A DNA stretch of 34,744 nucleotides. Source: Akkermansiaceae bacterium. Lineage in GTDB: Bacteria; Verrucomicrobiota; Verrucomicrobiia; Verrucomicrobiales; Akkermansiaceae. The stretch's first letter is position 1, and each line of letters begins with the position of its first letter. Location: contig CAIQXC010000600.1 of NCBI GenBank assembly GCA_903875675.1, positions 1 through 34,744 on the forward strand, written 5' to 3'. Below the pieces are notes generated by a model. The model did no database searches and was not told the DNA's origin. It saw only the letters and a list, made by a program, of their open reading frames with translations. Shown here piece by piece: positions 278 to 32,628 of this stretch. Position numbers and translations under genes: made by a program.

Positions 278-2671
278 TTAGCGGACCAGAATGGCATTTT
301 CGGGGCAGACTTCGCGGCAGGCGTTGCAGCGGGTGCAGAGGTCTGGGATGATCCAATGCTTTTGATAGGGAGCCATTGGGATGGCGTTGACCGGGCAATG
401 TTGGGCGCAGAGAGTGCAACCGATGCAGGCATCAGTGACCGAATAGGTGATGAGATCACGACATTTGCCGGCGGGGCAGCGGCCGTGAAGGTGGGCCTCA
501 AATTCATCGCGGAAAAACCGCAGTGACGAGAGCACCGGGTTGGGGGCGGTTTTGCCGAGTCCGCAGAGGCTGGCGCGGCGCACCATCTCGGAGAGGGTTT
601 CCAGGTCAGTTAGGTCATGAGCCTTGGCCTTGCCCTTGCAGATGCGCTCCAAGATATCGAGCATGCGGCGGGTACCGACGCGGCAGAACGTGCACTTGCC
701 GCATGACTCACACTGGCAAAACTCGAGGAAATAGCGCGCCATCTGCACCATGCAATCGTTTTGATCGAGCACAATCAGTCCGCCAGATCCCATGATGGCC
801 CCCACCTTTGATAGAGATTCGTAGTCGATCGGTGTGTCGGCCAAGGCAGCCGGGACGCAACCGCCGGACGGGCCGCCAACGAGCACGGCCTTGAACGGCG
901 AACCGTCCGGGGTACCGCCGCCGATGTCCTCGACGACCTCGCGGATGGTGATGCCCATGGGCACCTCGATGAGGCCGCCACGGGCGATTTTTCCGGCCAG
1001 AGCGAACACCTTGGTGCCCTTGCTGGTGGCACTGCCGATGGCCGCAAACGCCTCGCTGCCGTTGCGCACAATCCATGGCACGTTGGCAAAGGTCTCGACG
1101 TTGTTGATCAAGGTCGGCTTGTCGTGATAACCCTGCTCGGCTGGATAGGGCGGCTTGAGCCGGGGAATGCCGCGGCGGCCTTCCATCGACTCTAACATCG
1201 CAGTCTCCTCGCCGCATACAAACGCCCCGGCACCTTCAAACACATCAAGGTCAAAGGCAAAGGCGGATCCGAAAATGTTAGGTCCTAGTACACCGCGCTC
1301 CTGGCACAGGCGAAGGGCTTCACGCAGTCGCCTGACGGCCGATGGGTATTCTGCCCTCACATAGAGATATCCTTTGTTAGCTCCGACAGCGTAGGCGGCG
1401 ATGGCCATGCCCTCGATCACCCGGAAAGGAAATGACTCCATGAGCATCCGATCCATGAATGCCCCGGGGTCACCTTCATCGCCATTGCAGATGACGTATT
1501 TGCCATCCGCTGGCATGCCATGCACCACCCGCCATTTTCGGGCAGTGGGAAACCCCGCGCCACCCCGGCCGCGCAAGCCACTGCGATCGATGGTCTCGAT
1601 GACCTCAATGGGCGTTAGGCCATTGAGGCACTGGCGAAGGCCGGCGAATCCATCGTGGGCGAGGTATTCATCGAGTCCGAGGGGGTCGAGTTTGCCATAG
1701 TGCTCGGTGGCGATGTGACGCTGGCGGCCGAAAAATGCAGTCACCCGTGGGCTCGGGTTATCGGCCGTTCGGCCCGCGCCGACGTGCATATCGGCGGTCT
1801 CGCCGGACAGCCAGTCGAGAGCACTGGCGGCCCCACGGCGGAGCCAGGGCAGGATGCCGCGCGGTTTGAAGTGACGCCACAGCAGGGCATCGACTCGTTC
1901 GGGATGGATGCCGGAGAATTGGATAGGCGGGTGATTGGGGCGGGCAATCTCGATCAAGGGCGTGCGGTCGCACATGACGACGCAGCCGACGCGTTTGATG
2001 GTGGCATTGAGGTGGCCGCGGGCGACGGCAGCCTGCAATGCCTCATGGGTTTTGCCGCAACCGCGGGCGATGCAGCAGGAATCCAGGCAGATACGGATTT
2101 CGCCATCGGGCTTGGCAGGAGGAGCTAGAGCCGGGATACTGATTTTGCGGCGCTTGCTTTCGCGTTGTTCGCGGCGCAGAAACTCGTCCAGCATTTTGGG
2201 TCCCTTCTCGCGGGTCAAGTGGGCGTAACTGTCGTCATTGATCTGGACGACCGGTGCGAGCGTGCAACAGCCGACGCAGAAGACTTTCTCGACGGTGAAG
2301 ATCCCATCCTTATCGGTGTCCTCGCCGTCGCCAATGTGCAGATGTTTGCACAACGACTCGTGAATATCTTCCGCGCCCTGGATGTGGCAGGCCGTGCCAT
2401 TGCACACCTTGACGTGATGGCGGCCCATCGGCCGATGGCGGAACTGCGCGTAAAATGTCGAGACCCCGTCCAGAGTGGCGGGTGGAATACCGGTGAGCTC
2501 ACAGACCCGGCGCATCGCCGCGTCGGGCAAATACCGGTAGTGGACTTGCAGCGCTTGGAGGATCGGAATCGCCTGTTCGGCGGTGCCGCCAAGGCGGCTA
2601 ACAACATCATCGACATAACTCAAGTCGAGAGCGGCGGCAGGCGGCGGCGAAATCTGTAACTTACTTGCCAT
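278..2671 (-). CDS. Fused NADH-oxidising flavoprotein: NuoE-like [2Fe-2S] + second thioredoxin-like [2Fe-2S] + NuoF-like FMN/NAD/[4Fe-4S] + C-terminal 2x[4Fe-4S] ferredoxin (HydC/HydB-like architecture)
   Basis: NuoE motif CNGTACHIQ...CVGCC; second TrxFd CLDSCCIARGC...VGCVVMC; NuoF GRGGAGFPTARKW and CESCGKCTFCRVGTRRM; C-terminal CIGCTLCAQHCPVNAI and CTRCNACREVCPENAI. Preferred start is MASKLQ at 2671, which overlaps the upstream gene's stop by 11 nt; the ORF-track start at 2758 would overlap it far more. Confidence 0.93.
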   Translation of the reverse strand: MASKLQISPPPAAALDLSYVDDVVSRLGGTAEQAIPILQALQVHYRYLPDAAMRRVCELTGIPPATLDGVSTFYAQFRHRPMGRHHVKVCNGTACHIQGAEDIHESLCKHLHIGDGEDTDKDGIFTVEKVFCVGCCTLAPVVQINDDSYAHLTREKGPKMLDEFLRREQRESKRRKISIPALAPPAKPDGEIRICLDSCCIARGCGKTHEALQAAVARGHLNATIKRVGCVVMCDRTPLIEIARPNHPPIQFSGIHPERVDALLWRHFKPRGILPWLRRGAASALDWLSGETADMHVGAGRTADNPSPRVTAFFGRQRHIATEHYGKLDPLGLDEYLAHDGFAGLRQCLNGLTPIEVIETIDRSGLRGRGGAGFPTARKWRVVHGMPADGKYVICNGDEGDPGAFMDRMLMESFPFRVIEGMAIAAYAVGANKGYLYVRAEYPSAVRRLREALRLCQERGVLGPNIFGSAFAFDLDVFEGAGAFVCGEETAMLESMEGRRGIPRLKPPYPAEQGYHDKPTLINNVETFANVPWIVRNGSEAFAAIGSATSKGTKVFALAGKIARGGLIEVPMGITIREVVEDIGGGTPDGSPFKAVLVGGPSGGCVPAALADTPIDYESLSKVGAIMGSGGLIVLDQNDCMVQMARYFLEFCQCESCGKCTFCRVGTRRMLDILERICKGKAKAHDLTDLETLSEMVRRASLCGLGKTAPNPVLSSLRFFRDEFEAHLHGRCPAGKCRDLITYSVTDACIGCTLCAQHCPVNAIPMAPYQKHWIIPDLCTRCNACREVCPENAILVR

Positions 2672-4457
2672 CCTTGGTGCCAATGCAGAACAGGTGCTTT
2701 TTGCCGCGCAGATAGATGCGGCCCGGAGCGAACGCCGGCGAGGCTCCAGTGCCTTCACCGAGGGCGGAACGAGCGGTTTCCTTGAAGCCTTCCTTGCTAG
2801 CCTCGCCGCTGATCATGATTCCTTTGCTTGTTAGAAGGTGAATACGCCCGTTGAACATGCTGGGGGATGCCTGGATGATGGCCTTGGTATCGAATTGCCA
2901 CAGGTGATCGCCGGTGAGCGCATCGAAGGCGTGGAGCTTGCCCATGTACACCGAGTACAGCCGCGGCCCGTCACACAACAAACTGCATATATCCGGCAAT
3001 CCGTTATCTTCCTGTTGCCAAGCAATTTTGCTGGCGGTCACGTCGCCGCTGCCGTCGGGCTTGATTGCGGCGATGCTGGTTTGATCGCAGGCGACATAGA
3101 CCAAATCATTGGCATAGGCAGGCGAGGTGGCGACGTCGCCGCGCATGCATTTGGCGCGCCACAGTTCCTTGCCGGTGGGCGGATCGTAGGCGATGACCAA
3201 GGGGTCTGCAGAGGTGATGATTTGTTCGCGGCCCGCGTGTTGGATGATGATGGGCGACGCCCACGAATTAGCGACCGGACGCGGCGTGGACCATACAGGT
3301 TCGCCGGTATTGGCGTCCAGCGCCATGATCTTTGACTTGCCATCCTTGGGTCCGCCTTGATCAAACACCACGATCACGCGGTTATGCCAGAGGGTCAGCG
3401 AGGTGGCGTGGCCATAGTTGTTTTGCGGCGTTCCAAGGCTTCGGGCCCACAGGTGCTTGCCGCCCGCGCTGAAGCCTGCGACGTCGCCATTGGCAAAGAT
3501 GGCGAACACGCGGCGACCGTCGGTGGCGGCGCTGGATGCGGCGAAGCCAGTGCTTTCATCGGGTTCCGGCGCTTCCTCGCCGGCACTTGGTGGCAGGACC
3601 ACCGGCTCCTTCCACAACTGCGTGCCTGTGGTGGCGTCGAAGCAATAGACTTCGCGGCGCTTGGCAGTAGCTCCTGTTAGGAAGACACGATTGCCCCAGA
3701 TGACGGGGGAATTTTCACCGGGCAGGCCGATTTCCGTTTGCCACAAAATGTTTTTGCTGGTGGTGCCGTCCCAATCGTCTGGCAGTTTGGGCAGGGCTGA
3801 GATGCCTGATCCGTTAGGCCCGCGGAAATACGGCCAGTTGTTAGCCACATCTTCGGCGCTGGGAAACCAGGCGGAGTCGATGGGTCCGTCGATAGCGGCG
3901 GCCGCAGGAACCGCTATGGACAATGATGATTTTGCTAGTGACGGCTGCCAGTGGCTGTCGTTGTCCCAGACGAGGGCGAGAGTGAGACCAGCGAGCCCGA
4001 GGGTGCTGCCGGTGACGGCCTTGGCGGCGAGAGCCGTGTTGCGCAGCGGGTCGGGAGGGCGCGTGGAGATATTAGGAATGGTCACAAGCGGGCGGCGCAG
4101 GTGGCGGGCGAGTTTGAGTGCGCCGAGGAACACTGCGGCACCAGCCAACAAGCACCAGGCACCCCGGTTGGCGAGTTTTTCGCGCCGGAAGTAATCTTCA
4201 CGCAGGTGCTGGTCGAGACCGCGGATCTTTTGTTTGAGGTCGTCGTTTTTCGGATCTTCGCGCAAGGTGGTTTTGAGTGGGGCAAGTTCGCGGGCCTCGA
4301 CGAGGCGCACCTTGCCATTGCCGAGGCCGCGATGCAGATAGACGGTGTTGACGACCAGCAAGGAGGCCAGCGCCAGCGAAAAAACCCCGGCGATGAGAGC
4401 GATGCGCGAACATGCCTGCGCCCAAACGACATGCAGCAATTTTTTAGGATGATCCAC
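2661..4457 (-). CDS. Membrane-anchored PQQ-like (BamB-like) beta-propeller protein
   Basis: Repeated propeller motifs (WPYFRGPNGSGIS, YCFDATTGTQLWKEP, IMALDANTGEPVWSTP, HAFDALTGDHLWQFD) and N-terminal hydrophobic helices. Likely GTG start (VDHPKKLL) at 4457, preceded by GAAGGAGG, rather than the ORF-track start at 4547. Confidence 0.85.
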   Translation of the reverse strand: MDHPKKLLHVVWAQACSRIALIAGVFSLALASLLVVNTVYLHRGLGNGKVRLVEARELAPLKTTLREDPKNDDLKQKIRGLDQHLREDYFRREKLANRGAWCLLAGAAVFLGALKLARHLRRPLVTIPNISTRPPDPLRNTALAAKAVTGSTLGLAGLTLALVWDNDSHWQPSLAKSSLSIAVPAAAAIDGPIDSAWFPSAEDVANNWPYFRGPNGSGISALPKLPDDWDGTTSKNILWQTEIGLPGENSPVIWGNRVFLTGATAKRREVYCFDATTGTQLWKEPVVLPPSAGEEAPEPDESTGFAASSAATDGRRVFAIFANGDVAGFSAGGKHLWARSLGTPQNNYGHATSLTLWHNRVIVVFDQGGPKDGKSKIMALDANTGEPVWSTPRPVANSWASPIIIQHAGREQIITSADPLVIAYDPPTGKELWRAKCMRGDVATSPAYANDLVYVACDQTSIAAIKPDGSGDVTASKIAWQQEDNGLPDICSLLCDGPRLYSVYMGKLHAFDALTGDHLWQFDTKAIIQASPSMFNGRIHLLTSKGIMISGEASKEGFKETARSALGEGTGASPAFAPGRIYLRGKKHLFCIGTKDGK

Positions 4458-5862
4458 GGTTCCCTCCTTCTGATGGTAATGACACGGGCAGGCCGCGGCG
4501 CAGCAATTCATACGGGCAAGCGGAAAAACAACGGGTGCATGAAACACAGCGGCCGCTGTCGGTTTCGTAATCGGGCGAGCTGGCAGGGAAGAAGATGCGG
4601 GCGAGCTTGAGCGCCAGCACCAGACCGAAAGCCACCCCGATCCAGCGGCCGAGGTATAGGAAGCGCGCTTCGAGCGCCGTGGCCCTCGAGAAGACGGTTA
4701 GGCGATCAGCGGCGTGCTGGCGAAACGCAGTGAGTTCGTCCGGCGGCGTTCCTATCAAAGTCCCTTGTTCCTGGGCTTGGACCAGAGTGGCGAGCTTGCC
4801 CTCAGGATGAAGGGCCAGCGAAGCGAGTCCGACTTTGCCGCCGAGCCAGCCAAAAAGCAGCGCAGCGAGCGGCAGCATCAGGGCCAGAAGCACGATGCGT
4901 TGGCGCCCGCTGGCAATGCGCTCGCGGCCTTGTTTGGCAGGCATCGGCGGGTTGAGCGCGCCAAACGGGCAGGAGCATTCGCACAAGCGGCATTGGGTGC
5001 AGGTGCCCGGGGTGACCGTCGGCCGCCATTTGGCGAAGCGCGCGGCCACACCTAACAAAGCGCCATAGGGGCAGAGATACCGGCAATACGGCCGCCCGAC
5101 AAACATGGATAGAACGAGCAGGGCGACGCCGGAGACGAGCATGACGCGCGGCCCGGCCATGCGGAAGATGCCGACAAATGGGTCGAACTTACAAATGAGA
5201 AACAGCGTGCCGGTAGCGGCTAACAACACCGCCAGCGCGAGGTGGATCCATGGCAGCACGCGCAAGCATTCATCGAGCCAGCCGGGCACCTTGAGCGGCT
5301 TGACGAGGACCAAATCCTGGAGTGCCCCGTGCGGGCAGACGCCGGCACAAAACCCACGGCCCCAGACCAGCGCCACCACCAAAGGAAGCGTGAACAAGGC
5401 GATCACCGCCAGTGGCACCGCATACGTTGGGTCAGCGATGCCGAGGGCCACATTTTGGATCGAGCCGATGGCACACACACAACCGCGCCGCCAAAACCCG
5501 AAATACGCCAGCGAGGCAAGCGAGAGGATGACGACGCCGCGACGCGAGCGTTGGCGCAGGCTCAGCCACGAGGCGACGGCGAGACCGATGGCCAGCACGG
5601 CGACATCGAGCCAGCCGGTGCTGCGAGGTTGGGGATTGGGAACGACCAACTGGGGCACGGCATGGCCGGAAAAATCCGGTGGTGGAAACCGCTCGACGCC
5701 AAAGACGGAGTCGGCCCCCATGAACAAGAGCAGCAGGACCAGCACAGGTAGCAGGCGGGCAAAGAGGCTGGCTGATAGGAAAACAGTCTTCCAGCCAGTG
5801 GTGGAAGACGGCGTCTCCCATGGCATGCGGGACGCCTGTGCTGCGGTGATGACGCGGCTCAT
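4444..5862 (-). CDS. Multi-TM polyferredoxin membrane protein, NapH/NosR-C-terminal-like
   Basis: Several TM helices; FCAGVCPHGALQDL, YCRYLCPYGALLG, CTQCRLCECSCPFGALNPP and C-terminal CVSCTRCFSACPYELL. Start MSRVIT at 5862 makes an ATGA overlap with the upstream stop. Confidence 0.9.
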   Translation of the reverse strand: MSRVITAAQASRMPWETPSSTTGWKTVFLSASLFARLLPVLVLLLLFMGADSVFGVERFPPPDFSGHAVPQLVVPNPQPRSTGWLDVAVLAIGLAVASWLSLRQRSRRGVVILSLASLAYFGFWRRGCVCAIGSIQNVALGIADPTYAVPLAVIALFTLPLVVALVWGRGFCAGVCPHGALQDLVLVKPLKVPGWLDECLRVLPWIHLALAVLLAATGTLFLICKFDPFVGIFRMAGPRVMLVSGVALLVLSMFVGRPYCRYLCPYGALLGVAARFAKWRPTVTPGTCTQCRLCECSCPFGALNPPMPAKQGRERIASGRQRIVLLALMLPLAALLFGWLGGKVGLASLALHPEGKLATLVQAQEQGTLIGTPPDELTAFRQHAADRLTVFSRATALEARFLYLGRWIGVAFGLVLALKLARIFFPASSPDYETDSGRCVSCTRCFSACPYELLRRGLPVSLPSEGGNRGSS

Positions 5863-6677
5863 TTGGCTGAGGCACCCTTTCCGCGCAGAAGGTAGGGTTT
5901 GGTGAGAGGCACCTGATGAAATGCTTGGGCCGGGCAGGCGGTGGCGATGGAGCAGATGTTGCAGTTGATGCAGCGGTCGTGGCACACTTGGAGGTAGAGC
6001 GAGCCGTTGCCAAACATGTTGCAACCCTTCACGCACTTGCCGCAGCCCACACATAACTCCTTGTTGATACTATATTCGTAGTACGGATCCTCGATAAACT
6101 CGCGTTTGATCGCACCGGTCGGGCATAACTGGTTTTCAGCACCCTCGTCGAGATTGATAGGTTCCGGTTCGAAGTAACCGGTGCATAACTTGCAGTAGCC
6201 GCACATGCCGTACGAGTGAACGCACTTGACGGCGGACACCTCCAGCACGCAGTCGGTGGCGCAGCGGCCGCACTGGATGCATTGGTTCGGGTCGATTTGC
6301 CAGCGGGTGGCGTCCTTGCTTTCGCGACCGCTCAAAAAGCCGGCGGCGGCGCCAAATCCGAGCAAGCTGGCACCGCGAGCGCCGCTTTTGAGCAACTCGC
6401 GGCGGCTGATGGCGTGGCGGGAGAACTGGGCGGCAGGGAGGGAGGCACTGGGGAGGGGCGGTTCATTGACGGAAGAGTGTTGGGCAGGATGCCCAACACT
6501 GCCGGCGGGACGCCGGCGCTCCCCAGCGTCCCGCTGGTTCTCCCCAGCGTCCCGCTGGTTCTCCCGATCGTCCCGCTGGTTCTCCCGATCGTCCCGCTGG
6601 TTCTCCCGATCGGGACGCTGGTTGTCTCCGGCGGGACGCTGATTCTCTCCGGCGGAGGTGGGGGCTTCTTCACTCAT
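5859..6677 (-). CDS. Tat-type polyferredoxin (NapG-like) with an unusual ~90-aa repeat-containing N-terminal extension before the RR motif
   Basis: SRRELLKSGARGASLLGFGAAAGFLSG Tat-like signal; CIQCGRCATDC, CGYCKLC, CVGCGKCVKGC, CINCNICSIATACP cluster motifs; ATGA overlap with the upstream gene at 6674-6677. Confidence 0.88.
   Translation of the reverse strand: MSEEAPTSAGENQRPAGDNQRPDRENQRDDRENQRDDRENQRDAGENQRDAGERRRPAGSVGHPAQHSSVNEPPLPSASLPAAQFSRHAISRRELLKSGARGASLLGFGAAAGFLSGRESKDATRWQIDPNQCIQCGRCATDCVLEVSAVKCVHSYGMCGYCKLCTGYFEPEPINLDEGAENQLCPTGAIKREFIEDPYYEYSINKELCVGCGKCVKGCNMFGNGSLYLQVCHDRCINCNICSIATACPAQAFHQVPLTKPYLLRGKGASAK
6476..6517. repeat. Two abutting perfect hairpins: AGTGTTGGGCA-gga-TGCCCAACACT and GCCGGCG-gga-CGCCGGC
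   Basis: 11-bp stem at 6476-6500 and 7-bp stem at 6501-6517, read directly; both lie in the 5859..6677 CDS. Confidence 0.9.
6504..6650 (-). repeat. Seven-copy 21-bp tandem repeat inside the Tat-ferredoxin coding region (heptapeptides such as RENQRDD, GENQRDA)
   Basis: Units on the coding strand such as GATCGGGAGAACCAGCGGGAC; peptide GENQRPA/GDNQRPD/RENQRDD/RENQRDD/RENQRDA/GENQRDA/GERRRPA. Confidence 0.9.
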
Positions 6678-7744
6678 TTGCGTTGCATGATGCGGATGAG
6701 GCCACTGACACTGTCGAGGACCAGCACGCGGCCTTGTGGGTCGATGGCGGCATAGACGCCTGAGCCGAGGGCGTCGGTGGTGCCGGCATTGGCGGCTTGG
6801 AGGTATTCTGGAAACGCGTCGGGGCCTGCGACGAGGCCGGTGAACTCTCCGGTGGAGTTATACAATTTCACTCGGGGCAGGCCTTTTTCGCAGGTGACGA
6901 AGCTGCCGTCGGGGAAGACGTCGAAGCTCACCGGATTGCAGCAACCGCAAAACCCCGCCACCGCAAACGACCCTTGGCCCCATGCCACCTCTAGATCGCC
7001 ATCCAAGGTGAACGCTTCGATTTGGTGCTCACCCGGATTGGCGATGCGCAGGAGGCCGTCGGGAGCCATGCGGACACAAAAGTACGGGCTGGGCACGACG
7101 AATCCCTTGAGGTTGCGGGCAGGATCTCGGGCACCGATGACGCCTAGTTTTTTTCCGCTGGCATCGAGTTTGAGGACCACCCGGTTGGCGGCATCCGCAA
7201 CAAACACCAAATCACCCGCCAATGCGATGGACGTCGGCAGCAGGTTCTCCGGCAAGCCGCTCCACACCGCCAGCACCGCTCCACTGGCATCAAGCACGGA
7301 AATTTTCCCCAACTGGCCGACCATCATTTCCCCGGATGCTCGCCATGCAATGGAATACACTGGCTGGTCCAACGGAATCTTGAGACCCGCCTCGCCCTTG
7401 GCCGAAAATTTGTGGATGCCACCACTGCCGCCGACGACAATTGTGGAGTCGGCAGCCACCGCCAAGGCCCGGGCGTGTTCCAGACCTGAGGCGAAGCGGG
7501 TGATTTCCTGGTACCGCAGCAACGCCGGATCAGACTTCTGAAAGCGTGCCACATCGTAGGTGAATTCATCGCCAAGCACCGGTTTGCGGGCGGGGGCAGC
7601 GGTTTGCTTGCGGGTTAGCCTGGCGATGGTCAGCCCGGTGAGTCCGCCGAGGCCGGCGATGCCACCGCCCCAAGCTGCCGCCAGCAGGAATGACCGGCGT
7701 TGGGGTGAAGCTGATGCACTCTTATGATCCGCGTCTTCAGACAT
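6674..7744 (-). CDS. Secreted NHL-repeat-like beta-propeller protein with Tat-like signal
   Basis: N-terminus SPQRRSFLLAAAWGGGIAGLGGLTG; NHL-like repeats (GSGGIHKFSAKGE, FVADAANRVVLKLDASGKKLG, RIANPGEHQIEAFTLDGDL, FVTCEKGLPRVKLYNSTGEF). Confidence 0.85.
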   Translation of the reverse strand: MSEDADHKSASASPQRRSFLLAAAWGGGIAGLGGLTGLTIARLTRKQTAAPARKPVLGDEFTYDVARFQKSDPALLRYQEITRFASGLEHARALAVAADSTIVVGGSGGIHKFSAKGEAGLKIPLDQPVYSIAWRASGEMMVGQLGKISVLDASGAVLAVWSGLPENLLPTSIALAGDLVFVADAANRVVLKLDASGKKLGVIGARDPARNLKGFVVPSPYFCVRMAPDGLLRIANPGEHQIEAFTLDGDLEVAWGQGSFAVAGFCGCCNPVSFDVFPDGSFVTCEKGLPRVKLYNSTGEFTGLVAGPDAFPEYLQAANAGTTDALGSGVYAAIDPQGRVLVLDSVSGLIRIMQRK

Positions 7745-8003
7745 GGCCTAACGTAGGTTTGATGCCACCACCTTTGCGGTCCGGCTGGATTTGGCTTTTC
7801 GTATCCAACGCCTTCGGCAGACTGCAGTCCCCAAATACCGGGCAGCCGCCGCATGGGTTGCTGCGCGGGCACTGGCCGTGGCGGCCGCGCCAACCGAGCG
7901 ATGCGGCGATGCCTCCGAGAGCGAGAAATCCGCTACAGCGCAGGCAAGTCCGGAGGATGTCCCGTCGATGAGTCATGCGGCCAATACCTTCGTTCGTGCT
8001 CAT
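7737..8003 (-). CDS. Small 88-aa protein with Tat/TM-like N-terminus and CX5CX2CX5C motif, function unknown
   Basis: MTHRRDILRTCLRCSGFLALGGIAASLGWRG then CPRSNPCGGCPVFGDC. The start overlaps the upstream stop by ATGA (8000-8003) and the stop overlaps the downstream start (7737-7744). Confidence 0.72.
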   Translation of the reverse strand: MSTNEGIGRMTHRRDILRTCLRCSGFLALGGIAASLGWRGRHGQCPRSNPCGGCPVFGDCSLPKALDTKSQIQPDRKGGGIKPTLGHV

Positions 8004-9403
8004 TTCTTTCGCAAGTCCAAACAGACCAAGCGGGTTAGATCTCTAACAATAAGACGACCGCCTGCCAGTGCCAGCGGCCCCCAGGCGTCGTGCCCGTCGA
8101 GCACCTTGGCATGGGCGAGCGGGTGGAACCCTTCTGGCGAGGCCTGGGCCATCGTCAGCTCACCGTTGTCGTCCATCACAAAAATCCGGCCTTGAGCGAC
8201 CATGAACGGGCCGAGGCCGAAGCGGTGGCTCATGCCGCTGGCCCAGATTTGTTTCCCTTGGAGATCGAGGCAGACGAGTTCGCCGTTGGGGCGCACGCCG
8301 TAGAGGTGGCCGTCGTTGAGGATGGGGGTTTGCTGGGTGGCGCCGAAGGTATCAGCATCGAGTCGGAACGCGGGCTTGGCCTCCCACTTGGCGGCAGCTC
8401 CGGTGAGTTCAAGCATCAAGCTACCGGCCTCGTAGCCGCCGGAGAGGAAGATTCGGTTATTGGGGACTGGCACGGGGGTGGACACGGTGGCGATGGAGAT
8501 TTTCCAATCCGGGGTTTCCCACAACAGGGATCCATCGTCGGCGGCCACGCCTGCGACGCCACGGTGACCGCAATAGACGTAGGATTTTCGACCTCCGATA
8601 TCCATTGGGGCGATGGAAACGTGGGTCATTTTCCAATCACGCGGATTGGGGGTTTTCCACAGCACCTTGCCGGTGGCCAGTTCCACCGCGATCATCAGGC
8701 TGCTGCCACCCGGTGCCAGAATCACCCGATCGCCGTCAATCAACGGGCACTGGCCCGCATACCAAGCCGGCACCGTGCTGCCATACTCCCTGACCAAATC
8801 GATTCCCCACTGGTATTTGCCGCTCACCGCATCGAGGCAACACACCTGGCATTTTGGCCCAAGGCTCACCACGTGTTCCTTGGTGACTGCCGGCACAGTG
8901 CGCGACATGCCGTGGTTGCGCTTGATCGAAAGCGGATAGGAAAATTTCCAAATCTCCTTGCCGTCCGCCAGCGACAGGCAGCGCAGGGCGTCGGCCTGCG
9001 CGCTGCGGTCGTAATCCATAAGATAGACCCGGCCGTTCAGCACGGCGGCCCCGGCATAGCCTTCGCCGACGTCGATGGACCACAGCGGCTTGGGCTCGCC
9101 GACGGCCCAGGCCTCGGCCAAGGGGGTGGTTTCGGCAGAGATGCCGTCGCGATTGGCACCGCGGAAGCCCGGCCAGGCACCAGGCAAATCACTGGCCGTC
9201 CCGTCAGCTACGCTCAGGCTGGTCTTGGTCAAGGGCGAGGCACCACTGGTATCGGCCGTGCCACCGCCGCCGGTTAGAGGCAGGCGCAGCGGCACCCATC
9301 CGTCAGGCAAGCCCGTGCACCAGATGTACGCCAGCACGGCGGTCGCCACGAATGCAATCGCCGCAGGCAGGACTGAGGCAATACTGAAGCGGCTGAGGTG
9401 CAT
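8000..9403 (-). CDS. PQQ-like beta-propeller protein with N-terminal membrane anchor/signal
   Basis: ASVLPAAIAFVATAVLAYIW hydrophobic segment; WPGFRGANRDGISAE, CLSLADGKEIWKF, AVELATGKVLWKT, CLDLQGKQIWASG repeats; first gene of the overlapping operon. Confidence 0.87.
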   Translation of the reverse strand: MHLSRFSIASVLPAAIAFVATAVLAYIWCTGLPDGWVPLRLPLTGGGGTADTSGASPLTKTSLSVADGTASDLPGAWPGFRGANRDGISAETTPLAEAWAVGEPKPLWSIDVGEGYAGAAVLNGRVYLMDYDRSAQADALRCLSLADGKEIWKFSYPLSIKRNHGMSRTVPAVTKEHVVSLGPKCQVCCLDAVSGKYQWGIDLVREYGSTVPAWYAGQCPLIDGDRVILAPGGSSLMIAVELATGKVLWKTPNPRDWKMTHVSIAPMDIGGRKSYVYCGHRGVAGVAADDGSLLWETPDWKISIATVSTPVPVPNNRIFLSGGYEAGSLMLELTGAAAKWEAKPAFRLDADTFGATQQTPILNDGHLYGVRPNGELVCLDLQGKQIWASGMSHRFGLGPFMVAQGRIFVMDDNGELTMAQASPEGFHPLAHAKVLDGHDAWGPLALAGGRLIVRDLTRLVCLDLRKK

Positions 9404-9706
9404 GCAATGGAACGGTTAGACAATATCTTGGAATCGCGCCGTGGCAGAAAACGCCGGGCGGTGCAGGGAGCGTGGATTGAAAAGCGCCATCGGTGAGAGG
9501 GGGGACGCACAGGGCGTAAGCCTTCGCCACGCCCATGTCAAGCAAGCTGACTTTGCCCCTCAACCATGAGCCATCCTCGAGCGTCATCCGAGCAACGAGG
9601 CGTTCGGCGTCAGCCGTCGCGGTGGAAATGTGAAAAGAAGCTGGAAAATCGCCGTCTGAGCCGTAGAAATGCCTGCGACATCGGTTTGCAGCTACCCACC
9701 CTTCTC

Positions 9707-12700
9707 ATGATCCAAATTTCCCATCGTTTGCTTCGTTTTTCCGTGCCATTGCTGGCGCTGGCTTTGAGTATGGCCTGCCTGCCGGACGCACAGGCCCTCA
9801 CCTGGGGCACGGCCGGATCGCTGGCCACCGGACGCGACAGCCACACCAGCACCCTGCTGGCCACCGGCAAGGTATTGGTGACCGGAGGCCGCAACACGGC
9901 GGGCACCGCGCTGACCACGGCGGAATTATTTGATCCAGCCACCAACGTCTGGACGCCGGGCCCCCCCCTCCCCGCCGCCCGGTTTTGGCACTCTGCTACC
10001 ATCCTGCTCAATGGCAAGGTGCTGGTGGCTGGCGGGTTTGATGGATTCGCCTCGCTGGCCAGCGCCGCCTTATACGACCCTGCCAGCGGCACATGGGCGG
10101 CCACCGGTTCGATGACGCAAGGCCGCGACTCGTTCACCGCCACTTTGTTGGGCAACGGCAAGGTACTGGTCAGCGGCGGGTACACCAACAACGGCATCAC
10201 CAACGGCGCGGAACTTTATGACCCGGCCACCGGCAACTGGTCGAGCACCGGCACCCTGGGCAGCGCCAGCGCGAATCACACCGCCACCTTGCTCAGCTCC
10301 GGCAAAGTGCTCGTCGCAGGAGGCGAAGCAAGTCCGGACGTTGGCACGTCGCGCACTGAGGTCTTTGATCCGGCCATGGGCACATGGTCCCCGGCCGCAG
10401 CGCTCGAAGCCCCCTGCTTTTATCACAGCGCGACGCTGCTACCCGACGGCACGGTGCTTGTGCTTGGCGGAAAATCCAATGAGACCACCTCACTGGCCAG
10501 CGCACAGGTGTATGATCCAAGCGCCGCCAGTTGGACACTCACCAGCCCCCTGCCAATCGGCCGATTCTCGCACAGCGCCAATTTGCTGCCCAACGGCAAG
10601 CTGCTAATTGTCGGCGGTTTCAATACCACCAGCGGCATGCTCGCCAGCGCCGTTCTTTACGACTACCTCACCGGCACTTGGAGCACGCCCGGCACCTTGG
10701 CCACCGCCCGTTTGGACCACTGCACCACGCTCCTGCCCAGCGGCAAGCTGCTCATCAGCGGTGGCTGGAACGACAACAGCGCCACCTCACTGGCCAGCAC
10801 GGAGGTCTTGGACACCGCCACCGCTGTGACTGGCGCCAGCGGATCGTTGCCGGTCCCCCGCACCCAACAGGCAGCCACCCTGCTGGCAAGCGGCAAGGTG
10901 TTACTGGCCGGTGGCTTCAGCAGCACTGCCCTCGCCAGCGCCGATCTCTACAATCCGGTCACGGCCACAGCAAGCGCCGCCAACCCGATGGCCGCAGCTC
11001 GCTTCCTGCATACACTCAGCCAGCTCCAAAGCGGCAAGGTTTTGATAGCCGGCGGCAACAACGGGTCAGCCACCCTTGGCAGCGCTGAAGTATTCGACCC
11101 CACCACGGCTGCTTGGACGAGCACCGGAGCCATGGCAGGTGCTCGCGAACTGCACAGCGCCACGGTGCTCACCGATGGCAGGGTGCTGGTCGCCGCAGGC
11201 CAGACAGGCAGCGCCTCCATCGCCACCGCCGAACTCTACAATCCCTCCAGCGGCACTTGGTCCTTCACTGGCTCCCTGGCCACGGCTCGCCAAGGACACA
11301 GCGCCACTCTCCTCGCCAATGGCAAGGTGCTGGTGGCTGGCGGACGCAACACCGTCGGCAACCCACTGGCGGTTGCTGAGGTGTATGATCCTGCCACCGG
11401 CGCATGGACCCCCACCGCCTCGCTCACCACCGCCCGCACCGCTCACACCGCCACTTTGTTACCCAATGGCAAGGTGCTGGTGGTGGGCGGTTTGTCAGGC
11501 AGCACCTATCTATCAAATTGCGAGATCTATGATCCCGGCACCGGCCTGTGGACCAGCTGCGCGTCGCTGACCGATGCCCGTAGCGCCCACACCGCCACCC
11601 TGCTACCCACCGGCAAGGTGCTGGTGGCCGGTGGGACCAATGGCAGCGCCGTGCTTGCCAGCAGCGAGTTATTTGATCCTGCCACAGCTAGCTGGACGGC
11701 CGGTGCCGTGCTGGGTAGTTTACGAAAAAATCACACAGCCACACTGCTGACGGATGGCCGGGTGTGGTTCGCCGGGGGATCCAGTGGCGCGGACCTTCAA
11801 GCCAGTTCTGAGATCTATGATGTGGGCCTTGGTTATCAGAGCGCCTGGCAGCCGCAACTGATCTCGCCACCCTCCTCGCTGCTGCTTGGCGGCAGTTTTT
11901 CACTCACCGGCACCCGCTTCCGCGGCATCTCCGGCGGATCCTCCGGTAACTCCCAAGACGCCCCGGCTAACATCCCCAGCATACAACTTTACAACATCGA
12001 AAGCGGCCGCACCGTGACGCCCACTGCCACTGCTTGGACTGACGCATCACTCAACTCAGCTCCGCTTCTCGGCCTGCCGGCCGGTGCCGCCATCCTAACC
12101 GTGACCGTCAACGGCATCTCCGGCGCATGCATCACCCAAATCTCCAAAACCCCCGCCAGTGTAAGCCTCAGCGGCCTTTCGCAAGCTGCAGATAGCAGTG
12201 CCAAAAGTGTGTCGGCGACGACCAGTCCCGCAGGCTTGTCCGTGACTCTTACCTACAATGGTTTGCCGACGCTGCCGAGCGCAGTGGGAAGCTACGCGGT
12301 GGTGGCCACCATCACGGATTCGAGCTACAGCGGCAGCGTCGGTGCCATTCTGGTCATCAGTGCAGCCACCCCTTTCACGTCAGGGGCGGCGATGAACAGC
12401 GGCCGCCGATACCATACCGCCACCCTGTTGAACAACGGCAAAATTTTGGTCTGCGGCGGGCAATTTGCGTCTATTTTAAACAGTGCTGAGTTATATGATC
12501 CGGCCACCGGAAGTTGGAGCTACACGGGCTCGATGACCACCGGACGCATCCACCACAGTGCCACCTTGCTGCCCAACGGCAAGGTGCTGGTCGTCGGCGG
12601 CCAAAGTGCCACTGCTTTGGCGAGTGCCGAGATATACGATCCGGCGTTAGGCACATGGAGCACCACCGGCAGCATGTCCGTGCCACGCGTCTATCACACC

Positions 12701-15154
12701 GCGACGCTTCTGGCCAGTGGCAACGTGCTGGTGACGGGCGGACAAACCACCGGCAGCGCCTATCTATTTAGCACTGAGATCTATGATCCCTCCAACGGCA
12801 GCTGGACCAAGAGCGAGGATATGGCAGGCATCCGATTCAACCATGCTGCCTGCGTGCTGCCCAATGGCAAAGTGCTGGTATGCGGCGGCCAGAGTGCCAC
12901 TGCGGCTTTGGCCACTGCTGAGTTATACGATCCAGAGTTAAACACCTGGGCAGCGACCACCGGCCCGCTGGTGACGGCGCGGGTCAACCACACAGCGACG
13001 CGTCTGGCCAATGGAATGGTGCTGGTGGCGGGAGGTTATACCAGTATCACCAGTCCTTTGGCCAGTGCTGAGTTATTTGATCCGGCCACCGGCAAGTTTA
13101 CCGCCACCGGCTACATGAAAAACGGCCGATACTATCATACGGCCTCCCTGCTCCCCAATGGCCGGGTGATTTGTACAGGCGGCAGCAAGTGGGTAGGAAA
13201 CTTAGCGGCGCAGGCCAGTGCCGACATCTACAATCCGGTCACCGGCACATGGGCGGCTGGATATCCTTCGCTGCTCGGCAAACGCTACGACCACACAGCC
13301 ACCCTGCTGGCTAACGGAAAACTCGTGATCACCGGCGGTTACGGTGACAGCAATCCCGTGCTTGCCAGCACTGAGTTATATGATAATGCGCTTGGCACAT
13401 GGGCGTCCACTGCGGCACCGGGCACGGCACGAACCCATCACAGCGCGAGCCTGCTGCCGGATGGCCGGGTGCTGGCAATTGGCGGCTGGGATGGCAGCAC
13501 CACCCACGCCAGCGTCGATATGTACCATCCCGTCACCGGGGTTTGGGCGTCGGCCACTGCGATGGTCACGGCTCGGCGCGATCACACCGCCACACTGCTT
13601 AAGACCGGCAATGTGCTCGTCCTCGGCGGGCACAGCACGTCCGCCCTGGCCAGCGCCGAACTCTACAACCCAACCGTCGGCGCTTGGCTGCCCGTCGCTA
13701 ACATGACCACCCCACGCTTCCTGCACACCGCCACCTTGCTCGCCGATGGCCGAGTGCTCGTCACCGGCGGAAAAAATGATGGCGGAGTACTCAGCAGCGC
13801 GGAAATCTATAACCCCATCACCGGACTGTGGTCGGCAACCGGCTCCCTGCTCGGTGCTCGTGATGCCCACTCGGCAACCCTGCTAAGCACGGGCAAGGTG
13901 CTCGTCACTGCCGGAGAAAATGCTGCAGGTGTGCTCGCCACCACCGAGCTGTTTGATCCGACCAGCGGCCTGTGGAGTGCCACCGGTGGCTTGAGCGCCG
14001 CCCGCCTTGGCCACACCACCACGTTGCTGCCGAGTGGCAAGGTGCTGGTGGCCGGTGGCAGCAACGGCATCACCTATCAGAATAGCACGCAGCTTTACAC
14101 CCCCGCCACCGGCACCTGGGCGGCGACCAGCAACGTGGCAACCTCCGCCACCACCACACTCGCACTGGCTCGCGCCTCGCACACGGCCAGTTTACTAACC
14201 AATGGCAAGGTACTCGTCACCGGTGGCACGGGCGCTAGCGGTGTGACCGAAACGGCGGAGATATTTGATCCTGCCACCGGCCTGTGGCAAAGCACCGCTG
14301 CCCTTACCAGCAAGCGTGAAAGCCACACCGCCACGCTCCTGATCAACGGGCGGGTGCTCACCATTGGCGGCGGCGGTAGCGCCGGACCTCTCAACAGCGC
14401 GGAATCCTATGACGTGGGATTGGGATTCGCCGCCGCATCCCAGCCGATCATCACCAGCGCACCCGCCTCGATCGTTCCGGGCAATATCCTGGCTCTGGTC
14501 GGCAGCCAATTCCGCGGCCTCTCCGCCGCCTCAGGTGGCAACAGCACCCAAAACTCGTCGAGCGACCTGCCGGTGATTCAACTTCGGGCACTCGATAGCG
14601 GCCTGACCAGCGTGTTGCAACCGGCGAGTTGGTCGGACGTCGCCATCTCCACAACCCTACCCACGAATTTCCCGCAGGGCTGCGCGCTGGTGACCGTGTC
14701 CGTCAACGGCATTCCCAGCGCTTCGGCGATTTTGAAAATCGCCGCTCCCGACCCACTGCCCTACACCATCTGGAAACTCAGCAAATTCACCACCGCCGAA
14801 CTCGCCGATCCGACCATCAGCGGCGATTCCTCCGATCCGGATCAGGATGGCATCACCAACCTCATGGAGTACGCCTTGGCGCTCGACCCCTTGTCTGCCG
14901 ATGCCAACGGGCTGCCCACCACCAGCCAACAAACCGGCTATCTAACTATGACCTACCGCCTCAACAAACAAGCCACCGACGTCCTCGTCGTTGTCGAGGC
15001 CAGCGCCGATCTGACGGCCAACTCGTGGTTCCCTGTAGCGGTGGAAACCGGCCGCGTTGACCTGGGCAGCTACTGGCTGGTGACCGTTAGAGACAGCATC
15101 CCAACCAGCAATTCCCCGCAACGATTCATGCGCCTGCAGGTAAAGACTCCCTAG
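9707..15154 (+). CDS. Giant secreted Kelch-repeat protein with 28 Kelch units in two 14-unit modules, each capped by an IPT/TIG-like domain
   Basis: Repeating unit ~ARxxHTATLLPNGKVLVxGGxxxxxLASAELYDPATGTWxxTGS counted by eye 14+14 times; signal peptide MIQISHRLLRFSVPLLALALSMACLPDAQA. Start at 9707 is preferred over the ORF-track start at 9566, which adds a charged non-signal leader. Confidence 0.93.
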   Translation: MIQISHRLLRFSVPLLALALSMACLPDAQALTWGTAGSLATGRDSHTSTLLATGKVLVTGGRNTAGTALTTAELFDPATNVWTPGPPLPAARFWHSATILLNGKVLVAGGFDGFASLASAALYDPASGTWAATGSMTQGRDSFTATLLGNGKVLVSGGYTNNGITNGAELYDPATGNWSSTGTLGSASANHTATLLSSGKVLVAGGEASPDVGTSRTEVFDPAMGTWSPAAALEAPCFYHSATLLPDGTVLVLGGKSNETTSLASAQVYDPSAASWTLTSPLPIGRFSHSANLLPNGKLLIVGGFNTTSGMLASAVLYDYLTGTWSTPGTLATARLDHCTTLLPSGKLLISGGWNDNSATSLASTEVLDTATAVTGASGSLPVPRTQQAATLLASGKVLLAGGFSSTALASADLYNPVTATASAANPMAAARFLHTLSQLQSGKVLIAGGNNGSATLGSAEVFDPTTAAWTSTGAMAGARELHSATVLTDGRVLVAAGQTGSASIATAELYNPSSGTWSFTGSLATARQGHSATLLANGKVLVAGGRNTVGNPLAVAEVYDPATGAWTPTASLTTARTAHTATLLPNGKVLVVGGLSGSTYLSNCEIYDPGTGLWTSCASLTDARSAHTATLLPTGKVLVAGGTNGSAVLASSELFDPATASWTAGAVLGSLRKNHTATLLTDGRVWFAGGSSGADLQASSEIYDVGLGYQSAWQPQLISPPSSLLLGGSFSLTGTRFRGISGGSSGNSQDAPANIPSIQLYNIESGRTVTPTATAWTDASLNSAPLLGLPAGAAILTVTVNGISGACITQISKTPASVSLSGLSQAADSSAKSVSATTSPAGLSVTLTYNGLPTLPSAVGSYAVVATITDSSYSGSVGAILVISAATPFTSGAAMNSGRRYHTATLLNNGKILVCGGQFASILNSAELYDPATGSWSYTGSMTTGRIHHSATLLPNGKVLVVGGQSATALASAEIYDPALGTWSTTGSMSVPRVYHTATLLASGNVLVTGGQTTGSAYLFSTEIYDPSNGSWTKSEDMAGIRFNHAACVLPNGKVLVCGGQSATAALATAELYDPELNTWAATTGPLVTARVNHTATRLANGMVLVAGGYTSITSPLASAELFDPATGKFTATGYMKNGRYYHTASLLPNGRVICTGGSKWVGNLAAQASADIYNPVTGTWAAGYPSLLGKRYDHTATLLANGKLVITGGYGDSNPVLASTELYDNALGTWASTAAPGTARTHHSASLLPDGRVLAIGGWDGSTTHASVDMYHPVTGVWASATAMVTARRDHTATLLKTGNVLVLGGHSTSALASAELYNPTVGAWLPVANMTTPRFLHTATLLADGRVLVTGGKNDGGVLSSAEIYNPITGLWSATGSLLGARDAHSATLLSTGKVLVTAGENAAGVLATTELFDPTSGLWSATGGLSAARLGHTTTLLPSGKVLVAGGSNGITYQNSTQLYTPATGTWAATSNVATSATTTLALARASHTASLLTNGKVLVTGGTGASGVTETAEIFDPATGLWQSTAALTSKRESHTATLLINGRVLTIGGGGSAGPLNSAESYDVGLGFAAASQPIITSAPASIVPGNILALVGSQFRGLSAASGGNSTQNSSSDLPVIQLRALDSGLTSVLQPASWSDVAISTTLPTNFPQGCALVTVSVNGIPSASAILKIAAPDPLPYTIWKLSKFTTAELADPTISGDSSDPDQDGITNLMEYALALDPLSADANGLPTTSQQTGYLTMTYRLNKQATDVLVVVEASADLTANSWFPVAVETGRVDLGSYWLVTVRDSIPTSNSPQRFMRLQVKTP
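9818..12150 (+). repeat. Kelch/IPT module 1 (14 Kelch units + cap domain)
   Basis: Units from SLATGRDSHTSTLL to LGSLRKNHTATLLTDGRVWFAGG, then YDVGLGYQSAWQPQLISPPSS...VTVNGISGACITQISK. Boundaries are approximate. Confidence 0.85.
12385..14745 (+). repeat. Kelch/IPT module 2 (14 Kelch units + cap domain), paralogous to module 1
   Basis: Units from MNSGRRYHTATLL to LTSKRESHTATLLINGRVLTIGG, then YDVGLGFAAASQPIITSAPAS...VSVNGIPSASAILKI. Boundaries are approximate. Confidence 0.85.
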
Positions 15155-22664: not shown

Positions 22665-22686
22665 AATCCTCCATAAACTAGGAGGT
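22665..22686. promoter_or_regulatory. Second, inverted copy of the CTCC-N8-GGAG-type site
   Basis: The reverse complement acctcctagtttatggaggatt matches acctccctatttatggagtatt (22582-22603) at 18 of 22 positions. Confidence 0.5.
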
Positions 22687-22750
22687 GGTAGCCTCGGTCA
22701 AACGGGTGTTCACTAGCCCGGACAAGCTGACGTTTCACGCCCTATCGCCC

Positions 22751-25700
22751 ATGAATTCGACCCGCAACCTGGGAATTTTCCGCGCCCTCCTACTGGCCAT
22801 CGTGCTTGGCCAGCCGGTGCAGGCGGCGTTGGAAGCGACGACGCTGCGCTGCGAATATCTAACCAATCCAACAGGCCTCGATGAAACCCAGCCGCGTTTG
22901 TCATGGGTGGTTGAATCGCTCGACCGCGGCGAGACGCAAAGCGCGTGGCAGGTGGTGGTTGCCTCTAGCCGGGAGCATCTAGCGGCCGACCAAGGAGACC
23001 TGTGGGACAGCGGCAAAGTTATTGGCAATGCCACCAGCCAGATTGCCTATGCGGGGGTTCCGCTGGTATCCCGAGCGACGTGCTTTTGGAAAGTCCGCTG
23101 CTGGAACAAGGACGACCAGCCCTCGCCCTGGAGCCGCCCGGCAAGTTGGTCGATCGGCCTGATCAACGCTGCGGATTGGAGTGCCAAATGGCTCGACGGG
23201 GCGACTTTCGGCGCGGCGGACGGCACTCCGCCGGTCATCGTCGCGGCTTATTATGAGGCGGTGTCGGGTGCCGGTTCGCTCAACGTCACCGCACAACTGG
23301 TGACGCTGGCCCAGGCGGGCAATTACGCGTTGGCGGTAACCAATGCGACCTTCGGCAGTGATCCGGCGTATGGCACAGTGAAGCAATTGCGGGTGCAGTA
23401 CCAGAGCGGAGGGCTGAGTGCGACGAAGACATTTCCCGAAAACTCCAGCATCGTATTTCCAGGCGATCTTCCGGCTCTAACCAAACCGGTGATCCAAAGC
23501 GCCCGCTACGAATCGGTGAGCGGCAGCGGCTTCCGCGACGTCACCGCCCAGATCGTCTCGGCGGCCCAGGCCGGTTCGTTTTCCAGCGTCGTCAACAACA
23601 CAAATTTCGGCCCGGACCCCGCGCTCAACCAGATCAAACGCCTGCGGATCAATTACACGCTCAACGGTGCCGCCGGTGTGTCTATCACCGCGGAAAACAT
23701 GACCTTCAACTATCCGGCCGACCTGCCGCCGCCAGTCACCGTCGTTTTCACCAACGCCCGCTACGAGGCCAACGACGGCTTTGGCACGCTGGACGTCACC
23801 ACGGATCTAGCAAACCGGGCTCTGGCCGGCAGCTTCACCCTCACCGTGAACAACACCAATTTCGGCGGCGACCCCGCAACTAACCATGCCAAGCGGCTGC
23901 GGATGGAATACACCTACAATGGCCGCTCGCTGGTGAAATATGTGGCAGAAAACACCTTGCTGAATTTCCCGGCGGATCTGGCCAAGCCGAGCACGCTGCC
24001 ATACCTGCGCAAGTCGTTCACGCTGGCCAAGCCGATCCGACAAGCGACCGTGTATGCCACCGCCTTGGGCCTCTACGAACTGCATTTGAATGGCAGCCGC
24101 GTCGGTGACCATATCCTCGCTCCGGATTGGACTGACTATTCGAAGCGGCTGCGCTATCAGGCGTATGATGTGACATCGCAGCTAAGTGTGGGTGAAAATG
24201 TGTTAGGCGCACAGGTGGCTAGCGGCTGGTACAGCGGTCATATCGGCAACGGCGGCTATCAATTCTGGGGCAGCACACCGGCCTGTCTGGTGCAATTGGA
24301 GGTTTCCTACACGGATGGCACCAGCGAGCGCATCGTTTCCGACGGCTCATGGAAAATGCAGGTCAGCCCGACCGTTGCGAGCGACTTCATGCTGGGTGAG
24401 GACTACGATGCCAGCCGCGAATTGGCGGGCTGGGCGTCGGCGGGTTACGACGATTCGGGCTGGGGCCAGGTATTGCTGCGAGGCGAGCCAGCGCATGTTC
24501 TCAACGGGCAGGTGATGGAGCCGGTGCGTGAGTTGCTGGAGATATCTCCCAAATCATTGGCTCAATCAGCACCCGGCAAATGGACCTACGACATCGGCCA
24601 AAACATGGTAGGCGTCGTGCGCTTGAAAATCACCGCCGCCACCGGCACCCGCCTGACGCTGCGCCACGCCGAAATGCTCAACCCCGACGGCTCGGTTTAC
24701 ACCGCCAACCTGCGCGGCGCACCATCCATCGATACCTATATCTGCAAAGGCGGCGGCGAGGAAATCTGGCAACCCAAGTTTACCTTCCACGGGTTCCGTT
24801 ATGTGGAGCTTTCTGGCGTGGCCAGCACCCCTCCGCTCGACGCAATCACCGGCATCGTGCTCGGCTCGGACAACTCCCATACCGGCGATTTTTCTTGCTC
24901 TAACGGCTTCATCAACCAACTCCACTCCAACATTCAGTGGGGCCAACGCGGCAACTACCTGAGCGTGCCCACCGATTGCCCGCAGCGCGACGAGCGCCTC
25001 GGCTGGATGGGCGACGCCGAGGTGTTTGTCCGAACCGCCACCTACAACGCCGATATCGCAGCCTTTTTCTCCAAGTGGCTCACCGATGTCACCGACGCCC
25101 AGCTCTCCGACGGCAGATTCACCGACGTCTCCCCCAATGCCGGCACATCCAGCGGAACCCCGGCCTGGGGCGACGCCGGGGTCATTTGCCCGTGGACAAT
25201 CTATCAGGCATACGGCGACCTGCGCCTGCTCGCCAAAAACTTTCCGGCCATGGTCCAGTGGATCGAGTGGTGCAAATCCCAAAGCTCCAACTCGATCCGC
25301 AGCGGCTCGCGCGGCAATGACTACGGCGACTGGCTCTCGATCAACGCTGATACGAACAAGGAACTCATCGGCACCGCCTACTATGCCTACTCCACCGGAT
25401 TGGTGGCGCAGGCGGCGGCCGCGCTGGGCAAGACCGCCGATGCTGCCACCTATGCCGCCCTGTTCCAAACCATCAAGACCGCGTTCATCAACAAGTACGT
25501 CAACCCGACCAGCGCTGCCATCACCGGCAGCACCCAGTGCGCCTATGCCATGGCCCTCAAGTTCGACCTGCTGCCCGAGGCCTTGCGCCCAGTCGCCGCC
25601 CAGTTGTTGGAGAATGATATCATTGCCAAGGGCGACCATCTATCCACCGGTTTTGTCGGCGTGAGTTATCTGCTTCCCGCACTCACCGCCGCAGGCAAGA

Positions 25701-26737: not shown

Positions 26738-26749
26738 GAACGTCTCAGG
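26733..26749. terminator. Palindrome CCTGAGA-acg-TCTCAGG spanning both stop codons of convergent genes
   Basis: Perfect 7-bp arms; contains the + strand TGA (26735-26737) and the - strand TGA (26745-26747). Confidence 0.45.
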
Positions 26750-27392: not shown

Positions 27393-27401
27393 GGGATGAG
27401 A

Positions 27402-29945: not shown

Positions 29946-30020
29946 GATTTGGCTCCGTTCATCGGCAGGACTTTTAGTTCGGCCCGGCAGACGCGTCAAG
30001 TGAAGACAGACGAGTGTCTC

Positions 30021-30074
30021 CATCAAGGAAAGTGGGCATCTTGCCCACATCAAGGAGAGTGGGCATCTTGCCCA
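30021..30074. repeat. Two tandem 27-bp units (catcaaggaRagtgggcatcttgccca), each with a GTGGGCA-tct-TGCCCAC palindrome
   Basis: Units 30021-30047 and 30048-30074 differ at one base; palindromes at 30032-30048 and 30059-30075. Confidence 0.93.
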
Positions 30075-30171
30075 CATCTGCCCATGAGATGCGCAGTAAC
30101 AAGCCAGTCAATATCACCTCTACACTGCGCCCAGTGGGGCCGTAAAGATGGCTAAGTCATGCTTGGAAAAT

Positions 30172-30185: not shown

Positions 30186-30194
30186 CTCGCAAGA

Positions 30195-32588: not shown

Positions 32589-32628
32589 AAGGTTCGGGGT
32601 TATGATGGATCGAGAGATGGGGACGGTT

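Follow-up and report, generated by a model that had tools for sequence, protein, structure and literature searches.

What is built by a run of seven genes that joins NuoE and NuoF domains to an iron-sulfur membrane protein, an exported ferredoxin and three beta-propeller proteins? Such a run is found in an Akkermansiaceae bacterium, on a stretch of 34,744 nucleotides (hereafter, the window) that is the whole of contig C600 of a 6.56-Mb, 952-contig genome. The region from 9403 to 278 of the window is occupied by seven in-frame open reading frames (ORFs) of the minus strand, and all six junctions between them overlap. In order, we designate the genes G1 (PQQ_2 propeller), G2 (88 aa), G3 (NHL propeller), G4 (ferredoxin exported by twin-arginine translocation, Tat), G5 (NapH-like protein), G6 (PQQ_2 propeller) and G7 (NuoE-NuoF fusion). 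G8 denotes an eighth subunit, and G9 a further propeller encoded outside the operon of the window. The seven genes and G8 probably build a complex that passes electrons between the NADH and ferredoxin pools of the cell and proteins beyond the inner membrane.

In G7 (278..2671, minus strand, 797 aa) the Pfam domains are 2Fe-2S_thioredx, Complex1_51K, NADH_4Fe-4S and Fer4. The BfuC domain (PF01257, E 2.8e-48) covers residues 22-163, and the BfuB domains PF01512, PF10589 and Fer4 score above cut-off; SLBB has an E value of 2.5e-5 but reaches 24.4 bits against a cut-off of 27. BfuC plus BfuB is the definition of the Bfu core (Schut et al. 2022, PMC9304861). Among solved chains, 9n5u_B (NfnB) and the StnB-type 9bov_B and 8oh5_B lie closest to G7, with E values down to 7.5e-203; HydB of bifurcating hydrogenases comes next, and NuoF of complex I scores far lower. 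The B2 [2Fe-2S] cluster of the Bfu family is bound by four Cys, one of which may be Thr, and one His; this His is found in virtually all BfuB proteins but is missing from their non-bifurcating homologues (Schut et al. 2022, PMC9304861). Spacing and an alignment with solved homologues place the B2-site ligands of G7 at C640, C678, H727, C732 and C737, and across 44 G7 sequences conservation reaches at least 90% at C640, H727, C732 and C737. The B1, B3, B4, B5 and C1 ligands are held as well, the other cluster ligands of the protein being C90 C95 C132 C136, C199 C230 C234, C657 C660 C663 C703, C749-C759 and C779-C789. G7 proteins form a single clade (support 0.98) apart from the other NuoF-like proteins of the sampled genomes. 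Judged from its sequence, G7 is a fused BfuC-BfuB protein with a bifurcating core of the Bfu/HydBC/StnAB type and a predicted activity to match. The original prediction described it as NuoEF-type: the NuoE and NuoF domains are there, but the ligands and the nearest chains are those of a Bfu core and not of a generic NADH dehydrogenase. In the set of Schut et al., with 1558 BfuB sequences and 57 clades, 17 clades (1-17) were left unassigned (PMC9304861), and these may include the G7 clade.

A BfuA subunit is absent only in Type 4 Bfu enzymes (PMC9304861). Here this part is supplied by G8, a protein of about 520 aa that the original prediction missed when it took the set of seven as complete. 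The G8 gene follows G7 in most other lineages and lies in trans in the genus of the window. In the window's genome one part of it is at an end of contig C778 and the other at an end of C516, with about 20 bp common to both contigs; the two pieces together match the intact 516-aa G8 gene of a near-identical genome, where it belongs to an operon of the order G9-glycosyltransferase-G8. A loss of G8 in the genus, which would have made the enzyme Type 4, is thereby ruled out. The protein has an N-terminal 2Fe-2S domain, a GltD-type cluster domain, an FAD-binding fold and C-terminal 4Fe-4S motifs, and is homologous to StnC/NfnA-type (BfuA-like) proteins.

G8 departs from these homologues at one point. 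In its alignment with 9bov_A about 140 residues are skipped between the two FAD-binding halves, and Pyr_redox_2 matches the second half only. The region between the FAD-binding halves is, in this fold family, the NAD(P)H-binding subdomain. Our motif search, which placed both FAD motifs in 16 of 40 G8 sequences and was too strict for the rest, gave a spacing of 119-123 residues in 15 of the 16 and of 104 in one; no convincing second Rossmann motif was found in G8. Thus G8, by alignment and motif spacing, is without the subdomain with which characterised homologues bind NAD(P)H, which makes NADPH unlikely as the third substrate. Among 59 related genomes G4 is present in seven, and G8 in exactly the same seven (chance 2.9e-9). 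In a sample of 145 genomes of the phylum, G4 occurs in 22, which belong to 15 of the 82 genera, and every one of the 11 full-length or split G8 genes lies in a G4-positive genome (Fisher 7e-11); shorter matches to G8 (positions ~3-305, in ORFs of ~670-850 aa) are common in G4-negative ones. The Bfu sequence features that could be checked are all present in the predicted G7/G8 core.

The remaining six products, all encoded on the minus strand, would form the membrane and periplasmic part. G5 (4444..5862, 472 aa) is a conserved polytopic, NapH/NosR-like Fe-S membrane protein, with about eight hydrophobic segments predicted from hydropathy and a positive-inside reading, not from a structure. Two C-x3-C-P and two CxxCxxCx3C motifs fall on its predicted cytoplasmic side, and the conserved C128, C130 and C224 on the predicted periplasmic side. 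It scores 59 bits with Fer4_5 and 44.9 bits with TIGR02163 (NapH), against a cut-off of 213; a sequence comparison with solved structures gave no match at 0.001. The NapG-like G4 (5859..6677, 272 aa), recognised by Fer4 families, has R92 R93 and 16 Cys in four [4Fe-4S] motifs conserved in 81 sequences. Its N-terminal extension contains an in-frame tandem array of 21-bp units (6502..6655, found with Tandem Repeats Finder), which encodes a 7-residue repeat preceding the Tat signal; the array of a genome with 97% identity is 35 residues (five units) shorter, and the frame is kept. By these features, membrane-bound G5 and Tat-exported G4 with its four clusters would offer a route to the periplasm.

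G1 (8000..9403, 467 aa) is a membrane-anchored PQQ_2 propeller of the BamB fold, with the anchor at residues 5-33 and six conserved Cys (142, 185, 189, 219, 378, 461). Its AlphaFold2 model (mean predicted local distance difference test score, pLDDT, 88.3) gives E. coli BamB as the top Foldseek matches (E ~1e-18); an alcohol dehydrogenase and tetrathionate hydrolase are also listed. G6 (2661..4457, 598 aa), identified by Pfam, hydropathy and neighbourhood, is a PQQ_2 propeller with two N-terminal hydrophobic helices and without conserved Cys. The two proteins reach 22 (G1) and 52 bits (G6) against the TIGR03075 cut-off of 480, and no PQQ-binding or catalytic site was established in either, the PQQ residues not having been inspected one by one. 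G3 (6674..7744, 356 aa) is a six-bladed NHL propeller (mean pLDDT 88.8; Foldseek to TRIM2 NHL, E ~1e-14) with an invariant GCCNP motif (267-271). G2 (7737..8003) is a small twin-arginine protein with the motif C-x5-C-x2-C-x5-C-x-L-P; of the 49 sequences compared, at least 90% share R13 R14, C45 C51 C54 C60 and L62 P63. The composition given in the original prediction is confirmed by Pfam, with PQQ_2 in G1 and G6, NHL in G3, Fer4 in G4, G5 and G7, and the NuoEF domains; G2 has no Pfam or NCBIfam match.

The gene set is widely distributed. The order G1-G2-G3-G4-G5-G6-G7 is kept in full within the genus, where the metagenome-assembled genome (MAG) Akkermansiaceae bacterium Umea1p3_bin-495 holds a 96-98%-identical operon. 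At two more distant loci, L022 (a second copy) and L023 (from another family), the proteins are 33-54% identical, G3 is relocated and G7 is followed by an extra gene. When 84,980 species genomes were scanned with the G4 alignment, at least 526 relatives were found, and we analysed the neighbourhoods of the best 80. These 80 represent about eight bacterial phyla: Verrucomicrobiota (with Lentisphaerota and Kiritimatiellota), Planctomycetota, Poribacteria, KSB1, Omnitrophota, Aminicenantes, Armatimonadetes, Firestonebacteria and one record titled 'Proteobacteria'. Since most records are MAGs, single odd taxon titles are perhaps due to mis-binning. The order G1-G3-G4-G5-G6-G7 recurs in Verrucomicrobiota, Planctomycetota, Poribacteria, KSB1, Omnitrophota and other contigs. 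Among those of the 80 loci whose flanks are long enough, G4 has G5 as a companion in 72/72, G6 in 61/62, G3 in 65/69, G1 in 48/62, G2 in 48/72, G7 in 45/56 and G8 in 37/51, and nearly all companions share one order and strand. Pairwise subunit distances across loci correlate for all pairs (r 0.58-0.88), though kinship alone yields some correlation. Because the order is kept at 33-54% identity in another genus and across phyla, the set is not a chance grouping, and the joint occurrence elsewhere on which the original prediction had staked its case is found in several phyla.

The same neighbourhoods limit what can be concluded from the overlaps. These are all present as first described (8000-8003, 7737-7744, 6674-6677, 5859-5862, 4444-4457 and 2661-2671). 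Two of the six hinge on the choice of start, the longest ORFs beginning at 4547 and 2758; the GTG start at 4457 is preceded by AGAAGGAGGGAACC, a good ribosome-binding site. In L023, 42 nt separate G5 from G6 and the G3 gene is on the opposite strand. The overlaps are therefore not a conserved property, and strict co-translation of one complex, which had been read from them, is too strong a claim: G3 and G2 move in relatives, and in this genus G8 is encoded in trans. A truncation of the operon by the contig end was ruled out, as an unrelated gene follows G7 in three members of the genus.

The subunits appear to fall into two modules. At 11 loci G1-G6 lack an adjacent G7; a fused G7 is encoded elsewhere in four of these genomes and is missing from seven. 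G8 tracks G7, being present in full-length or split form in 4/4 of the former and 0/7 of the latter (1/330 by chance). As far as gene content tells, G7 and G8 behave as a single unit, which can be added to G1-G6. The absence of both from 7 of the 11 genomes, which had been picked for G7-less operons, also speaks against reading one co-translated complex from the overlaps, and since G1-G6 stay there, they must be able to accept another donor. A substitute electron-input module downstream of G6 was ruled out, the genes there being unrelated. The best match to G7 in most genomes without the fused protein is a NuoF-like gene; in the three loci inspected (L127, L131 and L132) this gene adjoins HoxE/HoxU-type genes, as in NAD-reducing hydrogenase.

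How could these parts work together? The parts themselves, their ligand sets, their co-occurrence and co-inheritance and the missing NAD(P)H subdomain can be read from the genomes; the physical assembly, the contact of G8 with G5, the outward direction and the acceptor are what we infer. We find it moderately probable that a Bfu-type module is joined to a NapGH-like conduit through the membrane, that the periplasmic part is rich in propellers, and that the whole confurcates outward. In the cytosol, G7 would handle NADH and ferredoxin in partnership with G8; the membrane and periplasmic module would consist of G5, G4, the anchored propellers G1 and G6, the NHL propeller G3 and the small Cys protein G2. 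NADH and reduced ferredoxin would be co-oxidised (confurcation) at the FMN of G7, and mid-potential electrons would go from G7 by way of G8 to the clusters on the cytosolic side of G5, be carried by G5 across the membrane to G4, and reduce an acceptor outside the cytoplasm that is docked on the propellers. Such an outward path is the simplest, and its direction is the one favoured by the membrane potential. The layout from NADH through the membrane to the periplasm, and with it the "electron-export or bifurcating module" of the original prediction, is thus supported as a proposal. Ferredoxin-linked POR genes occur in 7/7 carriers against 24/52 other genomes (p=0.011), which in so small and related a sample fits only weakly with a ferredoxin-using metabolism. 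Terminal oxidase was rejected as a marker of carriers, COX1 being present in 58/59 genomes.

Several observations weigh against outward confurcation. The seven genomes that retain G1-G6 without a fused G7 or full-length G8 mean either that the membrane module has a different partner there or that the link between the two modules is a loose one. Haem-copper oxidases are also encoded by the carriers among the relatives, and strict anaerobiosis is thus not the setting. We recognised neither a terminal reductase nor an acceptor; as had been predicted, no known terminal enzyme, reductase or multihaem protein is in the operon or recurs in the flanks of the 80 loci. The only protein with at least two CXXCH motifs in these flanks is a mis-called ORF, and a terminal haem enzyme there was ruled out. 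Our co-occurrence counts also treat related genomes as independent. Finally, the proteins that G5 and G4 resemble, NapH and NapG, receive their electrons from quinol. It is conceivable, though rather unlikely, that G5 and G4 exchange electrons with menaquinone, the Bfu module driving the quinone pool or being driven by it, and the periplasmic proteins forming a separate branch or a docking platform. Such an exchange would agree with both C-x3-C-P motifs of the NapH/NosR group in G5, with quinone as the third substrate predicted by Schut et al. for Nuo-Bfu (PMC9304861), and with the persistence of G1-G6 without G7 and G8, which is to be expected where quinol can serve as a second donor. However, quinone alone leaves G1, G2, G3 and G6 unexplained, while G4 with its Tat signal is among the most conserved parts and G4 and G5 travel with periplasmic propellers.

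The two other readings have less to recommend them. Electrons could flow in reverse, from a periplasmic substrate oxidised at the propellers through G4 and G5 to a bifurcation to NAD+ and ferredoxin. Bfu enzymes are reversible (PMC9304861) and PQQ_2 propellers share the quinoprotein dehydrogenase fold, yet inward movement opposes the membrane potential, G1 is nearest to BamB rather than to a dehydrogenase, and the site that such an oxidation calls for was not established in the propellers at the level of inspection given above; we consider this flow improbable. It is more doubtful still that the operon merely holds two machines, a soluble Bfu enzyme (G7 and G8) whose third substrate is soluble too and, independent of it, a NapGH/propeller system. 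The joint loss of G7 and G8 where G1-G6 remain, and the place of G8 in another operon in the window's genus, would be natural for such a pair; against it, full-length G8 without the NAD(P)H subdomain was seen only in G4-positive genomes of the surveys, G7 is near G6 in 45 of the 56 loci with room for it, and G5 and G6 distances correlate with those of G7 and G8.

If outward confurcation is correct, a bifurcating enzyme has its third partner outside the cytoplasmic membrane, whereas in known Bfu enzymes the third substrate is in the cytosol or at the membrane (as predicted for Nuo-Bfu and Mbh-Bfu). Electron hand-over to exported Fe-S proteins would let many uncultured phyla shed NADH and ferredoxin electrons without cytochromes. 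The system may account for some of the Bfu clades left without a function in 2022, and the gene set gives a context to several 'PQQ-like' and 'NHL' proteins for which 'hypothetical' is the usual label. A bolder generalisation, which we put forward tentatively, is a widespread undescribed class in which Bfu confurcation feeds an NADPH-site-deleted flavoprotein, a NapGH-like wire and a propeller-organised periplasmic acceptor, possibly linked to envelope assembly.

Some other genes in and around these loci should be mentioned. A block of the G9 propeller, a group-1 glycosyltransferase, an ABC ATPase and a 1100-aa MacB/FtsX-type permease recurs, in parts, near the operon in several phyla (L038, L049, L051, L066, L067, L069, L078, L079, L090, L092, L093, L096, L103); these neighbours hint at an envelope function. 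The window's genome has a smaller second operon (L013, 8412-11998 of contig C607) without a NuoEF gene, which encodes a GCCNP-type propeller, a PhnD-like binding protein, a Tat ferredoxin (~35-42% identical) and a NapH-like protein; related Tat-ferredoxin/NapH pairs are found in L015, L019, L021 and L024. Divergent from the operon, positions 9566-15154 of the window encode a 1862-aa protein of nearly all Kelch repeats, and a similar gene adjoins the operon in L014. Positions 22685-34743 hold a rhamnosidase, a LuxR-type regulator with a LamG-containing histidine kinase, and two arabinofuranosidases, by gene content a cluster of the plant-polysaccharide type.

The gene set is described nowhere in the open-access literature searched (supplements were not covered). 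As far as this literature shows, the combination of a Bfu core, an NADPH-site-deleted BfuA, a NapGH-like conduit and a propeller periplasm is apparently undescribed, and each known system shares only a part of it. Rnf and Na+-NQR likewise couple a redox path through the membrane to NADH or ferredoxin, and no RnfD/NqrB-type or FMN_bind subunit is matched by Pfam among the seven proteins. The flavinylated NapH-like systems (PMC8238504) differ in the FMN-binding domain, which is missing here. NapGH and NosR share the polytopic Fe-S membrane protein with C-x3-C-P motifs, and the Tat-exported four-cluster ferredoxin; unlike in these systems, no NapA/NapC or NosZ is present, and G5 is under the NapH cut-off. 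StnABC/Nfn-Bfu (8oh5 of Sporomusa ovata, PMC10482914; 9bov, 9n5u) contains the closest solved sequence relatives of G7 and G8 and has the same layout of N-terminal 2Fe-2S and GltD-type cluster domains, but its counterparts of G8 are 963-1178 aa long, with the NAD(P)H-binding subdomain and an FdhF-like C-terminal domain that G8 lacks. With the Bfu family (HydABC-type; PMC9304861) the system has in common the BfuC and BfuB domains and core ligands of G7, including the B2-site His, and the BfuA-type 2Fe-2S and 4Fe-4S domains of G8. PQQ, NapH and propellers are not mentioned in the main text of Schut et al. 2022 (PMC9304861). Unlike in that family, BfuC and BfuB are here fused in one chain, the predicted partners are a NapH-like membrane protein and an exported ferredoxin instead of Nuo or Mbh subunits, and propellers are placed in the periplasm.

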